From a virus: a stretch of DNA of 27,619 nt. The stretch covers positions 1-27,619 of IMG/VR virus record IMGVR_UViG_3300010157_000206. One strand, written 5' to 3'. The notes below the pieces were generated by a model. That model worked only from the letters and a program-made list of their open reading frames with translations. It was not told the origin of the DNA and did no database searches. Below, piece by piece: positions 1 to 27,619 of the stretch (its first letter is position 1; each line of letters opens with the position of its first letter). Both the position numbers and the translations under genes were made by a program.

Positions 1-231
1 TCGTTGATTCAAATCTGTTACCACCCTTTCGGGCGAGCCAATCATTTCTGCTGGCTTCTCATCCTTTTTCATTGATGATGAGTTCGGACTATATCTTCAT
101 CCTTATTTCTAAGGAGTTTCGCGTGTAGTCTCTACGGACTCTCTGCTTTCGCAGGTTGCCTCGGTATTGTCCCTTTTGTTTTCTTGAAGGAGTTTCACCG
201 ATATAGCGAAATTTTCAATTGGCGCTTACGC
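1..231 (-). ncRNA. Group I self-splicing intron in the major capsid gene (3' end outside window)
   Basis: On the minus strand the capsid frame meets TAA at 228-226, and the following bases fold like a group I intron. P1: TTGG (237-234) and TGC (232-230) pair with GCGCCAA (225-219) around a GTAA loop, with C233 bulged and a T232-G223 wobble that marks the 5' splice site between 232 and 231. P3: TCGGTG (201-196) with CAC-G-CGA (125-119). P5: CTGC-GAAA-GCAG (154-143). P7: GACTA (130-126) with TAGTC (91-87), inside the very conserved R (GAGACTACACG) and S (AAGATATAGTCC) elements. P8: CCTT/AAGG (114-101). P9 hairpins: CTCATC/GATGAG (82-58), AGCCA/TGGCT (56-36), and a GAAA-capped stem (35-22). The R/S pair is diagnostic of the family. 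No homing endonuclease frame is visible inside. The 3' splice site is not identifiable here and probably lies past the edge. Confidence 0.9.
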
Positions 232-681
232 AGCCAAAGACCCAATCGTGTTTAGGTAAATTGGTGGAACGAAATCTCCACCTGCTCCATCGGTGCGTGA
301 GATGTCGCGAGTTTCAACTGCGACTTCATGTTGGTGACGAGCTAAGCGATCCCATGAATCACGATCGTTGCGAAGTTGTGCGCCGATCATGTCGCGAACG
401 AAAGAGTTCTTTCCATCGCGGTCATAAGTCATTGCTTCGCGAGTTACAACAGCGCCGCCAAAGTTGGCAACCTTTGCTTCCTTGCGAGATTCTGCGATTG
501 CTGCTGTGCGTGCTTCTACCTTTTCGGCAGTTGCGATGCGCTCATCTAGGGCTGCAATATCATCTTGCGCCTTTGAAGCGGCATCAAGAGCATCTGCGGT
601 GACATCTTCTGCTGCCAAAGTTGTTTCAACCTCGGCAACAAGACCATCGCGCTGCTCCTTGAGTTTTGATGCTAGAGACAT
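226..681 (-). CDS. Major capsid protein, HK97 family, 5' exon (interrupted by group I intron)
   Basis: Builds the icosahedral shell. The ATG at 681 follows a strong GAGGAG ribosome site, 59 nt after the protease gene. Residues 1 to about 75 are charged and helical, like the scaffolding delta domain that the prohead protease removes in HK97-type capsids. Residues 133-142 (TDGAGGDFVP, continuing PIYL) are the motif that normally opens the mature capsid fold. The frame stops at 226, only 151 codons in, whereas family members are usually 300-420 residues. The real exon ends after codon 150 (GCT, base 232), exactly at a codon boundary, and the last codon plus stop belong to the intron. The remainder of the shell domain must be encoded beyond position 1. 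Position after terminase, portal and protease is the standard head order. Confidence 0.88.
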   Translation of the reverse strand: MSLASKLKEQRDGLVAEVETTLAAEDVTADALDAASKAQDDIAALDERIATAEKVEARTAAIAESRKEAKVANFGGAVVTREAMTYDRDGKNSFVRDMIGAQLRNDRDSWDRLARHQHEVAVETRDISRTDGAGGDFVPPIYLNTIGSLAA

Positions 682-740: not shown

Positions 741-2936
741 TTATGCCTTGACCTTGCGAGTCAAGGAATACTGTTTGAACTTGAGCGACAACTTGCGCTT
801 TGCAAGATCGAGATCAAGTTCTTCTGCTGAACGCATTCCAACTGATGTGGAATCGTAGGCAGGGAGTGTGACAACTGAAACTTCATAGAGTCGCTCGATG
901 TCATTGATTGTGCGAAGACCAGCATCGCGAGTCTGTCCTTCAGGAGAGACTGTGAATGCGAAACTCATCTTGTCCATATCGCCTCGGCGAAGTGCTGATG
1001 AAAGTTCTTGCGCCTTTGGATTTGCTGGATCAAGAGTTGCTTCCATATAAAGTCCGGTGGTGTCTTGGCGAAGTTTCAAAGTTCCAGATTGAGTTGAAGC
1101 CAATGGAATTCCTTCCATGTCATGATTGACAAGGAGGAAGACTGGGTCATCAGAAGCAAGTGCGCGAGTGAATGCTCCAGGAGCGATAACTTCGCGGAAG
1201 TTCAAGCCACTGGCTTCAGAGTTGAAGGTTGCGGCATAGCCACCAATCTTCAATGAGCCATCATCGGTTGCAACTGCACGAACTTCAGCAACCATTGTGA
1301 TGCGTTCGGCTTGAGCCATTGCAGTTTTGCGAGCTTCAATCATTTCAATATCCTCCGAGCGTGGGGCAGGTAGGGCGGTGATTACTGTCAGAATGTCTGA
1401 TCTGTGAACGACTGTGACATCGCTTGGAATCCAACCATTTCCCTGTTCCTTGTAGATACGAATAAGGAATGCTGGTTGATCTGGAGTTGTTTCCAAGACA
1501 TAGCCTTCAGAAGACTTTGCTTGCCCCTTGGTGACAACTTTTTCAACCTTACCCTTGGCGCGACCATTTGAAGTGTTCCAAGATACGAATGAACCTTCGC
1601 CGATACGAGCTGCGGAAGCGCGACCCTCGAAAGGAGCCTTGATTGAATCGTCATTGAATTCTTTTGATAGTCGCGCATAGTAAGCCGCAACCTTGTCTTT
1701 GATTTCCATTGCATCAGAATCAGGAATGTTCACTCCGCCGCGAGCGCCATTCAAGACACCAGCAACAGCAAAGATTCCTTTTGGAACTGCAACAAGTGAG
1801 CCATCGATGACATCAGCGAATTGCAATTTGTAAGATCCAAGAAGTTCTTTGTTTGTTTCGTCAACATAGAAGAATGCTTTTCCGTATTTAGCCCAATCCA
1901 TGTTGTCTTTTCCGCCAGCATATTCTTGAACACGCTTATCGGCAGCAGCAGCATCCCATGCGGTATCGCGTGGAGCGATTGGAAGATCAGAAGCGCCAGA
2001 AGCCATGCGAGGCATGATCATCATTGGATAAGTTGCGCCTTCTGTCTGTTCTTCAACATCATCTTCATCGACACCTTGAGCATCGACTGGATCTGGGGAA
2101 GGTTGTGTGACTTCTTGACCAAGGGAAGCGGTCAATTGCCATTTCCAGAATTGATGTTGATCGATGCGACCAGCGATGAAGTTTGCAACACCTTGCTGAT
2201 TGTAATTTGTAGCGCAATCGAAGACATCTGAAAGTTCATCAAGAATCATGTCATTTGCTGCAAGCAAGTCATTGGCAAGAGCGATTGGATCTTGCAAGAT
2301 TGCTGGAGCATCATCAAGGCATCGAAGCGCTAAGAATGAACCAAGTGTGAATGGAGCGATTGAACCAAGTTTGCGAAGGTTCTCGGCGATTGGATCGATT
2401 GACTCATAAACATCTTCATAAATTTTCAAGAACAGTTTGTGATATTCGCTGAAGTCAGCACCCTTCACATTCCAATGAGCGCCATGCGCCCGGAAATAGA
2501 AGCTCACAACATCTGCGAGAAGTTCAGTCAGTTCCTCGTTTAGATCAGGAACTTGATTCATGTCAGCCATGTCACCCTCCTCGGATGCCATCAGGGAAAG
2601 CGCTCGTGCGCTTTTCGAGATTTGATTTCTGATTCTTGTTGACCAAGTGAAGCCAGCATCGCCACCCCAGGCTGACCATGCAACTCTTCCAGGAGATGGA
2701 AAGCCATCTTCTCCAGAATTGAATCCCTCTGCTTGCTTGTCGATCTCATGTCTTTTGAAGAATGAATACATTCTCAAGATTGTTTCGGCGCTTACTGGAT
2801 GACCAGCAGCCAAATCACTTGCTCGTTTTTTGCCAACTGCGGTGAAGCCACCACCAGCATGACCATCAGCAATCCAAGCCAAAGCCTTTTTCGCTTCATC
2901 TTGAACTCCATTTGGAACTCTGAAAGTTTCAGCCAT
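741..2936 (-). CDS. Multidomain prohead protease polyprotein with Dps/ferritin-like domain
   Basis: A 731-residue protein, against roughly 200 for a simple HK97-type protease. Seen in order: (a) 1-102, a phage domain with the run SPGRVAWSAWGGDAG; (b) 127-273, a Dps-like four-helix domain with H154-W-N-V-K-G, H166, D181 and E185, spaced +12, +27 and +31 as in the Dps ferroxidase site, although the usual Asp at +16 is Leu170; (c) 317-437, a phage domain with LGSYKLQFADVIDG; (d) 447-520, a DUF2945/HVA1-type small beta domain (VSWNTSNGRAKGKV); (e) 546-700, a U35 prohead protease with H605 in VNHD and S658 in MSFAF as the likely nucleophile pair. It should cleave the capsid delta domain and perhaps itself. 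It abuts the portal gene (shared base 2936) and precedes the capsid gene. The role of the Dps part is unknown; iron or DNA binding inside the head is a guess. Confidence 0.9.
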   Translation of the reverse strand: MAETFRVPNGVQDEAKKALAWIADGHAGGGFTAVGKKRASDLAAGHPVSAETILRMYSFFKRHEIDKQAEGFNSGEDGFPSPGRVAWSAWGGDAGFTWSTRIRNQISKSARALSLMASEEGDMADMNQVPDLNEELTELLADVVSFYFRAHGAHWNVKGADFSEYHKLFLKIYEDVYESIDPIAENLRKLGSIAPFTLGSFLALRCLDDAPAILQDPIALANDLLAANDMILDELSDVFDCATNYNQQGVANFIAGRIDQHQFWKWQLTASLGQEVTQPSPDPVDAQGVDEDDVEEQTEGATYPMMIMPRMASGASDLPIAPRDTAWDAAAADKRVQEYAGGKDNMDWAKYGKAFFYVDETNKELLGSYKLQFADVIDGSLVAVPKGIFAVAGVLNGARGGVNIPDSDAMEIKDKVAAYYARLSKEFNDDSIKAPFEGRASAARIGEGSFVSWNTSNGRAKGKVEKVVTKGQAKSSEGYVLETTPDQPAFLIRIYKEQGNGWIPSDVTVVHRSDILTVITALPAPRSEDIEMIEARKTAMAQAERITMVAEVRAVATDDGSLKIGGYAATFNSEASGLNFREVIAPGAFTRALASDDPVFLLVNHDMEGIPLASTQSGTLKLRQDTTGLYMEATLDPANPKAQELSSALRRGDMDKMSFAFTVSPEGQTRDAGLRTINDIERLYEVSVVTLPAYDSTSVGMRSAEELDLDLAKRKLSLKFKQYSLTRKVKA

Positions 2937-6411: not shown

Positions 6412-6738
6412 TCAGCGATTCTTCTTGGATGAGTTGCAACTTCTGCACATCGCTTGCAGGTTTGATAATTCCAATCTTGAGCCACCACGATCCAGGGAGT
6501 GGATGTGGTCAACTGTGGCATCGGAGCCAACAAGTTTCTTGTTACATCTCAAGCAAGTCCAATTGTCTCTTCGTAAAATAATTACTCTTACCCTTTGCCA
6601 CTCTGCATCGTAGCCTCGGAGGGATGAGGTAGGTCTCTCTCGCTTTGGTTGACTTGCCTCTCGTATTGCAAAGCATTCATCACATCTTGATCTTGCTGTT
6701 GGAATTCCACAATCAAGGCAGGACAATTTGGGCGGCAT
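6412..6738 (-). CDS. HNH endonuclease associated with terminase
   Basis: A 108-residue nuclease. It has an N-terminal zinc knuckle (C7-x2-C10 ... C19-x2-C22), then a canonical HNH module: C62-x2-C65, the VDHIHSLDRGG core with H78 as general base, N93 in LSNLQ, and a second C98-x2-C101. Bases before the ATG at 6738 encode an unrelated-looking extension, and that ATG begins the conserved zinc knuckle, so I use it. No strong ribosome site precedes it, and it lies 14 nt after the Ntn hydrolase stop, so it may depend on coupling. Directly upstream of small terminase, it probably assists genome cleavage during packaging, as shown for HK97 gp74-type proteins. It is not a clear homing enzyme. Confidence 0.88.
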   Translation of the reverse strand: MPPKLSCLDCGIPTARSRCDECFAIREASQPKRERPTSSLRGYDAEWQRVRVIILRRDNWTCLRCNKKLVGSDATVDHIHSLDRGGSRLELSNLQAMCRSCNSSKKNR

Positions 6739-6752
6739 TATTTTATGGAACT

Positions 6753-7325
6753 TTATTTTCTTTTGATAATTGTTGTTATCTTGCCGCCGGTATATGAATC
6801 CCACTTGGATGCAATTGCAATTGCATCGCGAATGATTTCCTCTGCATGATCAGCATCATCAATGTTGAATGATAAATCTTTCAATGCGTAACTCATTGCG
6901 CCGAGTGCTAATGCTTCGCCACTTCCAGCAACATAGACATTCTCTTCACAGCGTTCCCATGAGTAATCATCTTCAATGCGATATAAGTTGCAATCAATTA
7001 CAACAAGGAAGATGTTGCCATGTGTTACTGCTGAGTCATCCTTCTTTGTTTCATAACCAGCATCAACGAATGCTTTGCGAATGGAAGGGATTAGAGTTCG
7101 TGTGATATATCTGTCGGGATTTGATCGACCGACTTTTGGTGCGCTCCATGTATGTTGGAGAATGTTGATGCCACGAACATCGCCCGCGCCACCAATGATG
7201 ATGCCGTTGTTCTCGAATATCTTTCCGCCCGGAATGTTGATCTTGAATCCATCTTGATCAGAAGATTGTGAATCGCCTCCAATAACAATCCAATCATCTC
7301 CTTGAATAGCAGCAAGAGTTGTCAT
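6753..7325 (-). CDS. Proteasome beta/HslV-like Ntn hydrolase
   Basis: A 190-residue threonine-type N-terminal-nucleophile hydrolase. It begins Met-Thr-Thr, so removal of Met exposes Thr1. D18 of the precursor (mature D17) sits in VIGGDSQ, and K35 (mature K34) in GGKIF matches the catalytic Lys33 region. A GSGEALALGA loop at 134-143 and the helix AEEIIRDAIAIASKWD follow in the order seen in HslV and proteasome beta subunits. There is no propeptide, which is like HslV rather than actinobacterial beta subunits. Actinobacteria carry a 20S proteasome, so it might mimic or modify that machine or act alone as a ring peptidase in particle maturation. No unfoldase partner is visible. The ATG at 7325 overlaps the preceding stop (ATGA). 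Confidence 0.85.
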   Translation of the reverse strand: MTTLAAIQGDDWIVIGGDSQSSDQDGFKINIPGGKIFENNGIIIGGAGDVRGINILQHTWSAPKVGRSNPDRYITRTLIPSIRKAFVDAGYETKKDDSAVTHGNIFLVVIDCNLYRIEDDYSWERCEENVYVAGSGEALALGAMSYALKDLSFNIDDADHAEEIIRDAIAIASKWDSYTGGKITTIIKRK

Positions 7326-15534: not shown

Positions 15535-15573
15535 GCTGGCGAGCGCCTAGCGAGGTTGGCGCTACGAGCCAGC
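15535..15573 (-). terminator. Second hairpin straddling the epimerase stop
   Basis: GCTGGC (15535-15540) pairs with GCCAGC (15568-15573), and AGCGCC (15542-15547) with GGCGCT (15558-15563), leaving a 10-nt loop and a small internal bulge. The helix includes the TAG of the epimerase gene. No T run follows, so it is probably a stabilising or auxiliary element to the terminator just downstream rather than a terminator by itself. Confidence 0.5.
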
Positions 15574-16431
15574 AAAGGCGCGTTCTATGCCTTCTAAGAG
15601 GCTGATTTGAGGCTTGTAGAAGGTTTCCATGAAGGTCGGATCTCCGACCCTGTAATGGACTCCTACGGGCTCTGAAGGCAGATGCTCAATGGCTGGGGAG
15701 TAGCCAGCGACCTTGGAGACCAAGGCAGCCAAGTCATTGAATGAAGTCGGGATTCCAGTGCAGAGATTGGCAGTTTCAATGTCAGCCACGCATCCAGCCA
15801 AGGTTGCATCAACAATGTCATCAATGTGAATGAAATCTCGAACTTGAGTGCCATCGCCCCAAATTTGGAATGGATCTGATTTGTCGATGCCTCGCTTGAT
15901 GAATGATGGGAATGGATAGTCCAAAGCCTGGTCGCTTCCATAACCTGAGAATGGTCGATAAGTGTGAACAGTCAATCCTTCTCGCCTTGCATGATGCGCC
16001 AGCATCTCCCCGGTCAACTTTGCCCAGCCATAGGAAAGGTCAGGAGTGGCGATGCGCGAGAGATGGATGTCAGTCTCTTCCAGTTTCCTTGCAGCTTCAT
16101 TGCGCCGTTGCAATTCGATTGGATAAGCCGCCGATGATGAAAAGTAAGTTACGCAACCAGGATCGGTTCTAAGCGCCCAACCGAACATCTCGGCATCAAT
16201 TGAGAGATCAACTGCGAGCGCTAGTGGTGAGCCTTCGATCATCTTGCGACCGCCGACAACTGCCGCCAAGTGAATGACCTTGTCGAAGTAAGTGTTATCA
16301 GTTCGGAAGAAGTCTCTGGCATCTTTGCCGTTGACAATATCAACGCCAACAATCTGATGACCTTGCGATTCGAACTTCTTGCGGAATGCTCGACCTACGA
16401 AGCCAGCATCTCCAGTGATAAGAATTTTCAT
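15562..16431 (-). CDS. NAD-dependent sugar-nucleotide epimerase/dehydratase (extended SDR)
   Basis: 289 residues. The Rossmann motif G7-D-A-G-F-V-G13 binds NAD. The catalytic set is S99/S100 in YFSSSAAYP, with Y134 and K138 in SYGWAKLTGE. RPFSGYG and VRDFIHIDDIVDA are typical of GDP- or NDP-sugar epimerases and dehydratases (GMER/GalE-like). It converts a nucleotide sugar; the exact substrate is unknown. It overlaps the glycosyltransferase by ATGA, so the two probably work together to decorate a virion protein, phage DNA or the host surface. It is the last gene before the terminator. Confidence 0.9.
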   Translation of the reverse strand: MKILITGDAGFVGRAFRKKFESQGHQIVGVDIVNGKDARDFFRTDNTYFDKVIHLAAVVGGRKMIEGSPLALAVDLSIDAEMFGWALRTDPGCVTYFSSSAAYPIELQRRNEAARKLEETDIHLSRIATPDLSYGWAKLTGEMLAHHARREGLTVHTYRPFSGYGSDQALDYPFPSFIKRGIDKSDPFQIWGDGTQVRDFIHIDDIVDATLAGCVADIETANLCTGIPTSFNDLAALVSKVAGYSPAIEHLPSEPVGVHYRVGDPTFMETFYKPQISLLEGIERAFAGS

Positions 16432-26819: not shown

Positions 26820-27619
26820 TTACGCCATCCCTGGGAAGGAAGTTGGATCCAAGAGTTCCATTGCTCGGCGAGGCAGAGAATAAGTTGGGGTTGAATAAAG
26901 TTCATCACCAGATTGAGTTCTGCTCATGACATTGATCGCTCCACGCTGGGTCTGCCATAAGTGACGAATGATTTCCAAGACACCTTGCTTGGCGCTCATT
27001 GGTGGGTTCACATATCCTGCAACATAAGTGATGGAAACATTGTTCATGCCTTGTGTCCAGTAGCCATAAGAGTTGGTCGCATAGAGCGTTCCAGAGCCGA
27101 TGCGGTATAGGCGCTGCCCTGTGTAGTCGAGAACATAGTTTGAAGATGGAACAGTGATTCCATTCTCGGTCACTGAAGTGATGCTGATTGCCTTTGGATT
27201 GCGGATGCGGATGAATTCAGTGCCGCCATCGTAAAGTTCGTTCGAATAAGTTCTGCGACCCAGAACTTGCCCGACATAGGCTTCGGCAAGATCAGAGGAA
27301 GCATCGATGAAGGATCGAAGTTCTTCATCTTGAGAAATATCGCTGGCTGGGATATTGAGATATTCCTTTGCCTCAGATAATCCAACAATTCCCAATTCGT
27401 TGAAATCGCGCACCATGAAATCATCGGAGTAAGCGCTGGCATTTGTACCAGTAGCCGACCACTTGACTGCATGTCTTCCTGTTTGAGAAGGTTGAAAGTC
27501 GCAGTTGTAAAGCCCAGTTGATGGGTTAGTTACTGAGCCTGTTGAAGTTGTGCCATCTGGCAAAGTAATTGTGCAAGAAACCGCCGAAGCGTTTGCATTT
27601 GCGCCTGTTGAATCAGTAA
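26820..27619 (-). CDS. Head-tail connector (gp6-like), partial at right edge
   Basis: The frame remains open to the end of the window, so the true start lies beyond 27619; a TTG at 27563 is not a convincing start. The visible N-terminal part (about 70 residues, with SCTITLPDGT, STGLYNCDFQPSQTGRHAVKW) looks like a small immunoglobulin-like beta domain. It is followed by a typical gp6-like connector region: LSEAKEYLNIPASDISQDEEL, FIDASSDLAEAYVGQVLGRR, and the later SAKQGVLEIIRHLWQTQRG. The connector ring joins the portal to the tail. It is followed by a 3-nt gap and the tail terminator gene. Confidence 0.82.
   Translation of the reverse strand, partial: TDSTGANANASAVSCTITLPDGTTSTGSVTNPSTGLYNCDFQPSQTGRHAVKWSATGTNASAYSDDFMVRDFNELGIVGLSEAKEYLNIPASDISQDEELRSFIDASSDLAEAYVGQVLGRRTYSNELYDGGTEFIRIRNPKAISITSVTENGITVPSSNYVLDYTGQRLYRIGSGTLYATNSYGYWTQGMNNVSITYVAGYVNPPMSAKQGVLEIIRHLWQTQRGAINVMSRTQSGDELYSTPTYSLPRRAMELLDPTSFPGMA

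Follow-up and report, generated by a model that had tools for sequence, protein, structure and literature searches.

A 244-nt group I intron within codon 143 of the major capsid gene of an uncultured phage, and the Ala-Ala ends of the read-through products of its lineage

Why does the frame of a phage major capsid gene close after 151 codons, when complete uninterrupted homologues from IMG/VR relatives are 449 aa long, and what lies at the break? The window, that is, the whole stretch analyzed here, is a viral contig of 27,619 bases, in which the capsid frame occupies positions 681..229 (-), starts at 681, and ends, as the preliminary description stated, after 151 codons at a TAA (228-226 (-)). 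This frame matched the phage major head protein profile phrog_10 (E 2e-6), and genes encoding a Peptidase_S78 protease and a portal protein were found upstream of it; the assignment to the HK97-type major capsid proteins is based on this match and on the order portal–protease–capsid. The closest cultured capsid relatives were mycobacteriophages of the Omega/LittleE group and their neighbours (39-41% identity). A scan of host-genome contigs revealed a single capsid relative, in an Actinomycetota MAG (54% identity across the whole protein); the host of this uncultured freshwater phage is probably actinobacterial, with which the MAG relative is consistent, without being proof. The protease frame (741-2936 (-), 731 aa) contained ferritin/Dps-like and TUDOR-like domains upstream of Peptidase_S78, an unusual fusion, and a nucleotide-sugar epimerase gene (15562-16431 (-)) was present in this small phage genome.

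The covariance-model search suggested in the preliminary description yielded a match of the Rfam group I model RF00028 to positions 263-66 (65.2 bits against a gathering score of 50, E 1.3e-15). The borders were set by comparison with intronless loci, for which the 5' exon was used as the query and 80 homologous loci were identified in IMG/VR. In 76 of them the gene was uninterrupted at codon 143 (...VPPIYL|INEY...), with the site reading L-I/T/L-N-E/D-Y-A-E-F and the nucleotides CTN ATC AAC GAA, and the similarity between the window and these relatives stopped at codon 143. The remaining four contained the same intron: L004, L005, and L006 had the full 5' exon, a 244-nt intron with one or two base differences from that of the window, and then AATCAACGAATACGCTGAG, whereas L002 terminated within the intron. 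Thus, the 5' exon (254..681 (-)) includes codons 1-142 and the CT of Leu143, as supported by the phrog_10 match and by the 80 loci, which match codons 1-143, and the intron (10..253 (-); 244 nt, no ORF) is delimited by RF00028, the empty sites, the complete copies, and a core model scoring 136 bits. The intron closes with G10, and the 3' exon opens with AATCAACGA (9..1 (-)), which completes Leu143 and continues I-N-E/D, with an identical junction and a continuing capsid frame in L004, L005, and L006. Consequently, the insertion lies inside the Leu codon (CT|A), i.e., in phase 2. Both a U.G pair at the 5' splice site (U254.G243) and a terminal G were found at the borders given by the empty sites, and the cut is placed at 254|253 because the U.G pair of P1 is 254.243.

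It had been supposed at the outset that splicing takes place at base 232, exactly between codons, and a hairpin with a U-G juxtaposition is indeed present there. However, the homologues diverge after codon 143 and not after codon 150, continuing INEY, and Rfam sets P1 at 257-240, so that the hairpin at 232 is P2. A cut at 232, extremely improbable in our estimate, is ruled out by the empty sites; the actual cut is 22 bases upstream. The preliminary description had also advised looking for the 3' exon beyond position 1; its first nine bases are inside the window, and the sequence of the remainder, off the contig, was taken from relatives.

It should be noted that a head-tail adaptor gene (26820..27617 (-); phrog_442, E 1e-32) is open at the other end of the contig. 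The gene order in L036 and L055 is capsid, small genes, adaptor; since the adaptor homologue comes after the capsid gene in relatives, the contig was evidently opened at the intron. Its left end (1) falls within the 3' exon, after nine of its bases, and its right end (27617) lies within the gene that follows the capsid gene in relatives. Judging from relatives, the stretch missing between the two ends is estimated to be shorter than 2 kb. Contig L002, which was near-identical and came from a different sample, likewise ended inside the intron.

The elements of the group I fold were assigned as follows. P1 (240..257 (-)) is formed by exon and intron bases 257-252 with the guide 245-240 and holds U254.G243 at the splice site; it was read from the sequence, and the guide is re-matched to the exon at each site of insertion considered below (A, B, C, and LittleE). 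At the site of the window, the guide pairs with four exon bases only. Bases 247-244 can form P10 with bases 9-6 of the 3' exon. The P2 hairpin, also a sequence reading (219..237 (-), GUAA loop), reads in frame Leu-Ala-Ala-stop, the stop being 228-226. The catalytic core (86..215 (-)) comprises P3 (211-206/122-117), P4 (201-197/165-161), P6a (154-151/146-143), P7 (132,130-126/91-86), and P8 (115-111/104-100), and the positions given in the preliminary description for the R and S strings and for P7 (130-126 paired with 91-87) were confirmed. In 23 non-redundant related cores, the pairs of P3, P4, P6a, P7, and P8 were formed in 97.6% of cells, two-sided changes were found in 13 of the 26 core pairs, and the covariation score was reached by none of 500 shuffles. 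The 3' peripheral hairpins (22..82 (-)), namely, P9 (82-77/63-58), 56-52/40-36, and 35-31/26-22, were read directly from the sequence. That the major capsid gene is interrupted by a group I intron, as originally described, is strongly supported by the Rfam match, the covariation, the empty sites, and the whole exon–intron–exon copies.

Two introns with proven splicing are related to that of the window. For the capsid intron of mycobacteriophage LittleE, the proof came from RT-PCR, the size of the protein, and N-terminal sequencing; for the minor-tail intron of mycobacteriophage Baka, it came from RT-PCR (PMC3706429). The core model, which was built without LittleE or Baka, matched both introns (75 and 74 bits, respectively, each with E 6e-14); membership in one lineage is thus seen in core homology, but not in insertion position. 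The capsid protein of LittleE (gp13; Cluster J) is homologous to that of the window, which shows about 39% identity to the proteins of this phage group, and the intron cores are homologous as well, with the same P2 GCTGCGTAAG, a U.G at the cut, and a read-through product ending in Ala-Ala; however, the LittleE intron measures about 820 nt and contains an endonuclease gene, compared with 244 nt and no ORF in the window, and its cut (~GG|YAVPP) is about seven codons upstream. The Baka intron is ORF-less (265 nt), with a homologous core and the read-through end DDLAAAAA, but it interrupts a minor-tail gene. In the Lactococcus phage Tuc2009, a group I intron is also present in the major head gene (mp4), whereas its core is weakly similar (24 bits), it carries an HNH gene, and its read-through product ends FPAWS. 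Comparison of the intron with named phages by blastn revealed short core matches only. Because of the LittleE, Baka, and Tuc2009 precedents, the intron type is considered already known and the window an added member of it, by which the LittleE/Baka kind is shown to occur in freshwater phages as well.

The lack of an endonuclease gene would be in accordance with a decayed, non-splicing insertion that has broken the capsid gene. This is very unlikely: the core is intact and covarying, the L004-L006 copies are only one or two bases off with the capsid frame kept on both sides, and the homologues in LittleE and Baka splice (PMC3706429). The intron is real, well delimited, and almost certainly functional, and we infer splicing in the phage of the window. 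As a whole, the observations are very probably best explained by a group I intron of 244 nt that is inserted at codon 143, splices, has spread horizontally, and belongs to the LittleE/Baka lineage. The pre-mRNA would fold into the ribozyme, guanosine would attack after U254, held as a U.G pair in P1, and the exon thus released would attack downstream of G10. Ligation of CU to AAUCAACGA would re-establish a capsid frame of roughly 449 aa; with the 3' exon of L005, the predicted ligated junction is TACCT|AATCAACGAA.

Comparison of the exons suggests how the intron arrived. Relative to the nearest intronless relative, L003, the identity of the window exon was 98-99% at 200-428 nt from the insertion and 78-88% nearer to it. 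Relative to the carriers L004 and L005, it was 100% in the 24 nt beside the site and 70% at 300-428 nt, with 73% identity in the upstream gene, while the introns were one base apart. Exon identity falling away from the site, together with the reverse profile against L003, is characteristic of transfer with co-conversion of flanks and shows that the intron has moved horizontally between phage lineages. Spread would proceed by recombination at an intronless site between related phages, with co-conversion of the flanks. No endonuclease gene, and no ORF at all, was found in the 244 nt, so that the intron does not bear this mark of homing itself, and the recombination was likely started by an endonuclease acting in trans. 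An HNH endonuclease gene (6412-6804 (-)) adjoins the small terminase gene of the contig; it was considered as the trans homing enzyme and rejected, as no link to the intron was found and it had four close relatives only.

Further introns were found in the same capsid gene. The covariance search of the 80 capsid loci revealed introns in exactly eight, namely, L002 and L004-L006 at the site of the window (site A) and four at a second site (B), where a related intron of 244-246 nt follows ...RTISG (L036, L055, L074, and L075). At a third site (C), an intron follows ...LPAG in L104 and L122. At all three sites, the guide fits its own exon, with a U.G at the cut, and at site B a compensatory change was observed (TCGGGT/GCCCGA in some strains versus TCAGGT/GCCTGG in another). 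When the cores were placed in a quick tree, the introns from the three sites were scattered among introns of other genes and did not group; a single origin of A, B, and C via local hopping is therefore not claimed. Thus, related introns are now known at three positions of one capsid gene.

Beyond this gene, a core-pattern scan recovered at least 119 contigs, and the exon families among the matches listed were mostly major head proteins (phrog_10, 2263, 1357, and 617) and the major tail protein phrog_4574, the other exon class being HNH genes. The trend was the same for a broader group I pattern (phrog_1357, 267, 1328, and others), and a third core variant was found mostly in HNH genes and in few head genes. 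About half of the sampled intron relatives (L082-L200, e.g., L153, L149, and L082) were in one major tail gene, phrog_4574; these carriers were other freshwater phages with the read-through ends CPLAA or CPVAA. Since the tallies refer to pattern-selected, partly related contigs from viral collections that favour structural genes, the occurrence of the lineage mostly in major capsid and tail genes is a descriptive trend only. Among the sampled introns, major head genes were the commonest home besides endonuclease genes, which is at variance with the customary list of intron-bearing genes in phages; with this and the LittleE and Tuc2009 precedents, the novelty initially ascribed to an intron in a capsid gene was overstated. 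Capsid genes with such introns are ended early by gene callers.

The 3' end of the unspliced frame has a recurrent form. The unspliced protein of the window terminates ...NTIGSLAA, and the read-through products end ...CPIAA or ...CLVAA at site B, ...CRIAA at site C, ...VATAAA (SVATAAA) in LittleE, and ...DLAAAAA in Baka. Within the lineage, Ala-Ala closed 30 of the 56 distinct exon-frame ends, those of LittleE and Baka among them, versus 4 of the 149 other-frame ends (Fisher p 2e-16, with rows that are not independent), and the four latter ends were, by inspection, exon-frame ends misassigned under the longest-frame rule. Of 62 occurrences of GCNGCN followed by a stop, 57 were in the exon frame, and four of the remaining five were judged misassignments of this sort. 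The distance from splice site to stop was 25 nt at site A (phase 2) and 27, 24, and 27 nt at sites B and C and in LittleE, respectively (phase 0); the frame of the stop was kept although this distance varied. The stop lies 13-22 nt before P3 in the lineage and about 14 nt before it in the window, a position that would keep ribosomes off the core: those entering unspliced RNA may halt at the UAA of P2, leaving the core free to fold. This explains the frame, but not by itself the Ala-Ala.

Ala-Ala may nevertheless be a by-product: the stop would be selected to shield the core, and Ala-Ala would arise from P2 bases or from a guide complementary to Gly codons, with no degron. This reading is on balance probable. 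In-frame stops shortly after the 5' junction are a known intron feature (PMC3073962), where P2 instead encodes an LSA or VIA end, the opposite strand is changed to match, GCC GCC overlaps the guide in GC-rich relatives, and many relatives are without terminal Ala-Ala. On the other hand, Ala-Ala comes from different RNA parts and precedes UAA, UGA, or UAG in various contexts; all four bases occur at the third position of the penultimate Ala codon, often as mismatches in P2; and the more distant introns L234, L240, and L279 also terminate CLAA, CLAA, and ALAA, respectively.

For ClpXP, the decisive part of the ssrA tag is its terminal Ala-Ala (PMC7652416), and proteins bearing LAA tags are broken down in mycobacteria (PMC3613350), while the degradation of GFP by ClpXP requires a tag longer than LAA alone (PMC7652416). 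The end of the read-through product (-SLAA in the window) resembles such a C-degron, as do the (L/V/I/M/A)AA termini of the lineage; unlike the tmRNA tag, it is intron-encoded and reached by ordinary termination with no tmRNA, and the degradation is putative. It is tentatively proposed, at somewhat less than an even chance, that the introns carry a built-in degradation tag, in which Ala-Ala preceded by a hydrophobic residue or by Ala marks the truncated structural protein for ClpXP. Selection for Ala-Ala is unproven, as these bases are at the same time part of P2 or of the guide, and no published intron-encoded degradation tags were found in the literature searched. If the proposal is true, partial shell or tail subunits would be prevented from poisoning virion assembly, and the tag may let the lineage inhabit the most heavily expressed genes of the phage; a true degron of this kind would represent a novel means by which a self-splicing element limits the damage done to the gene it occupies.
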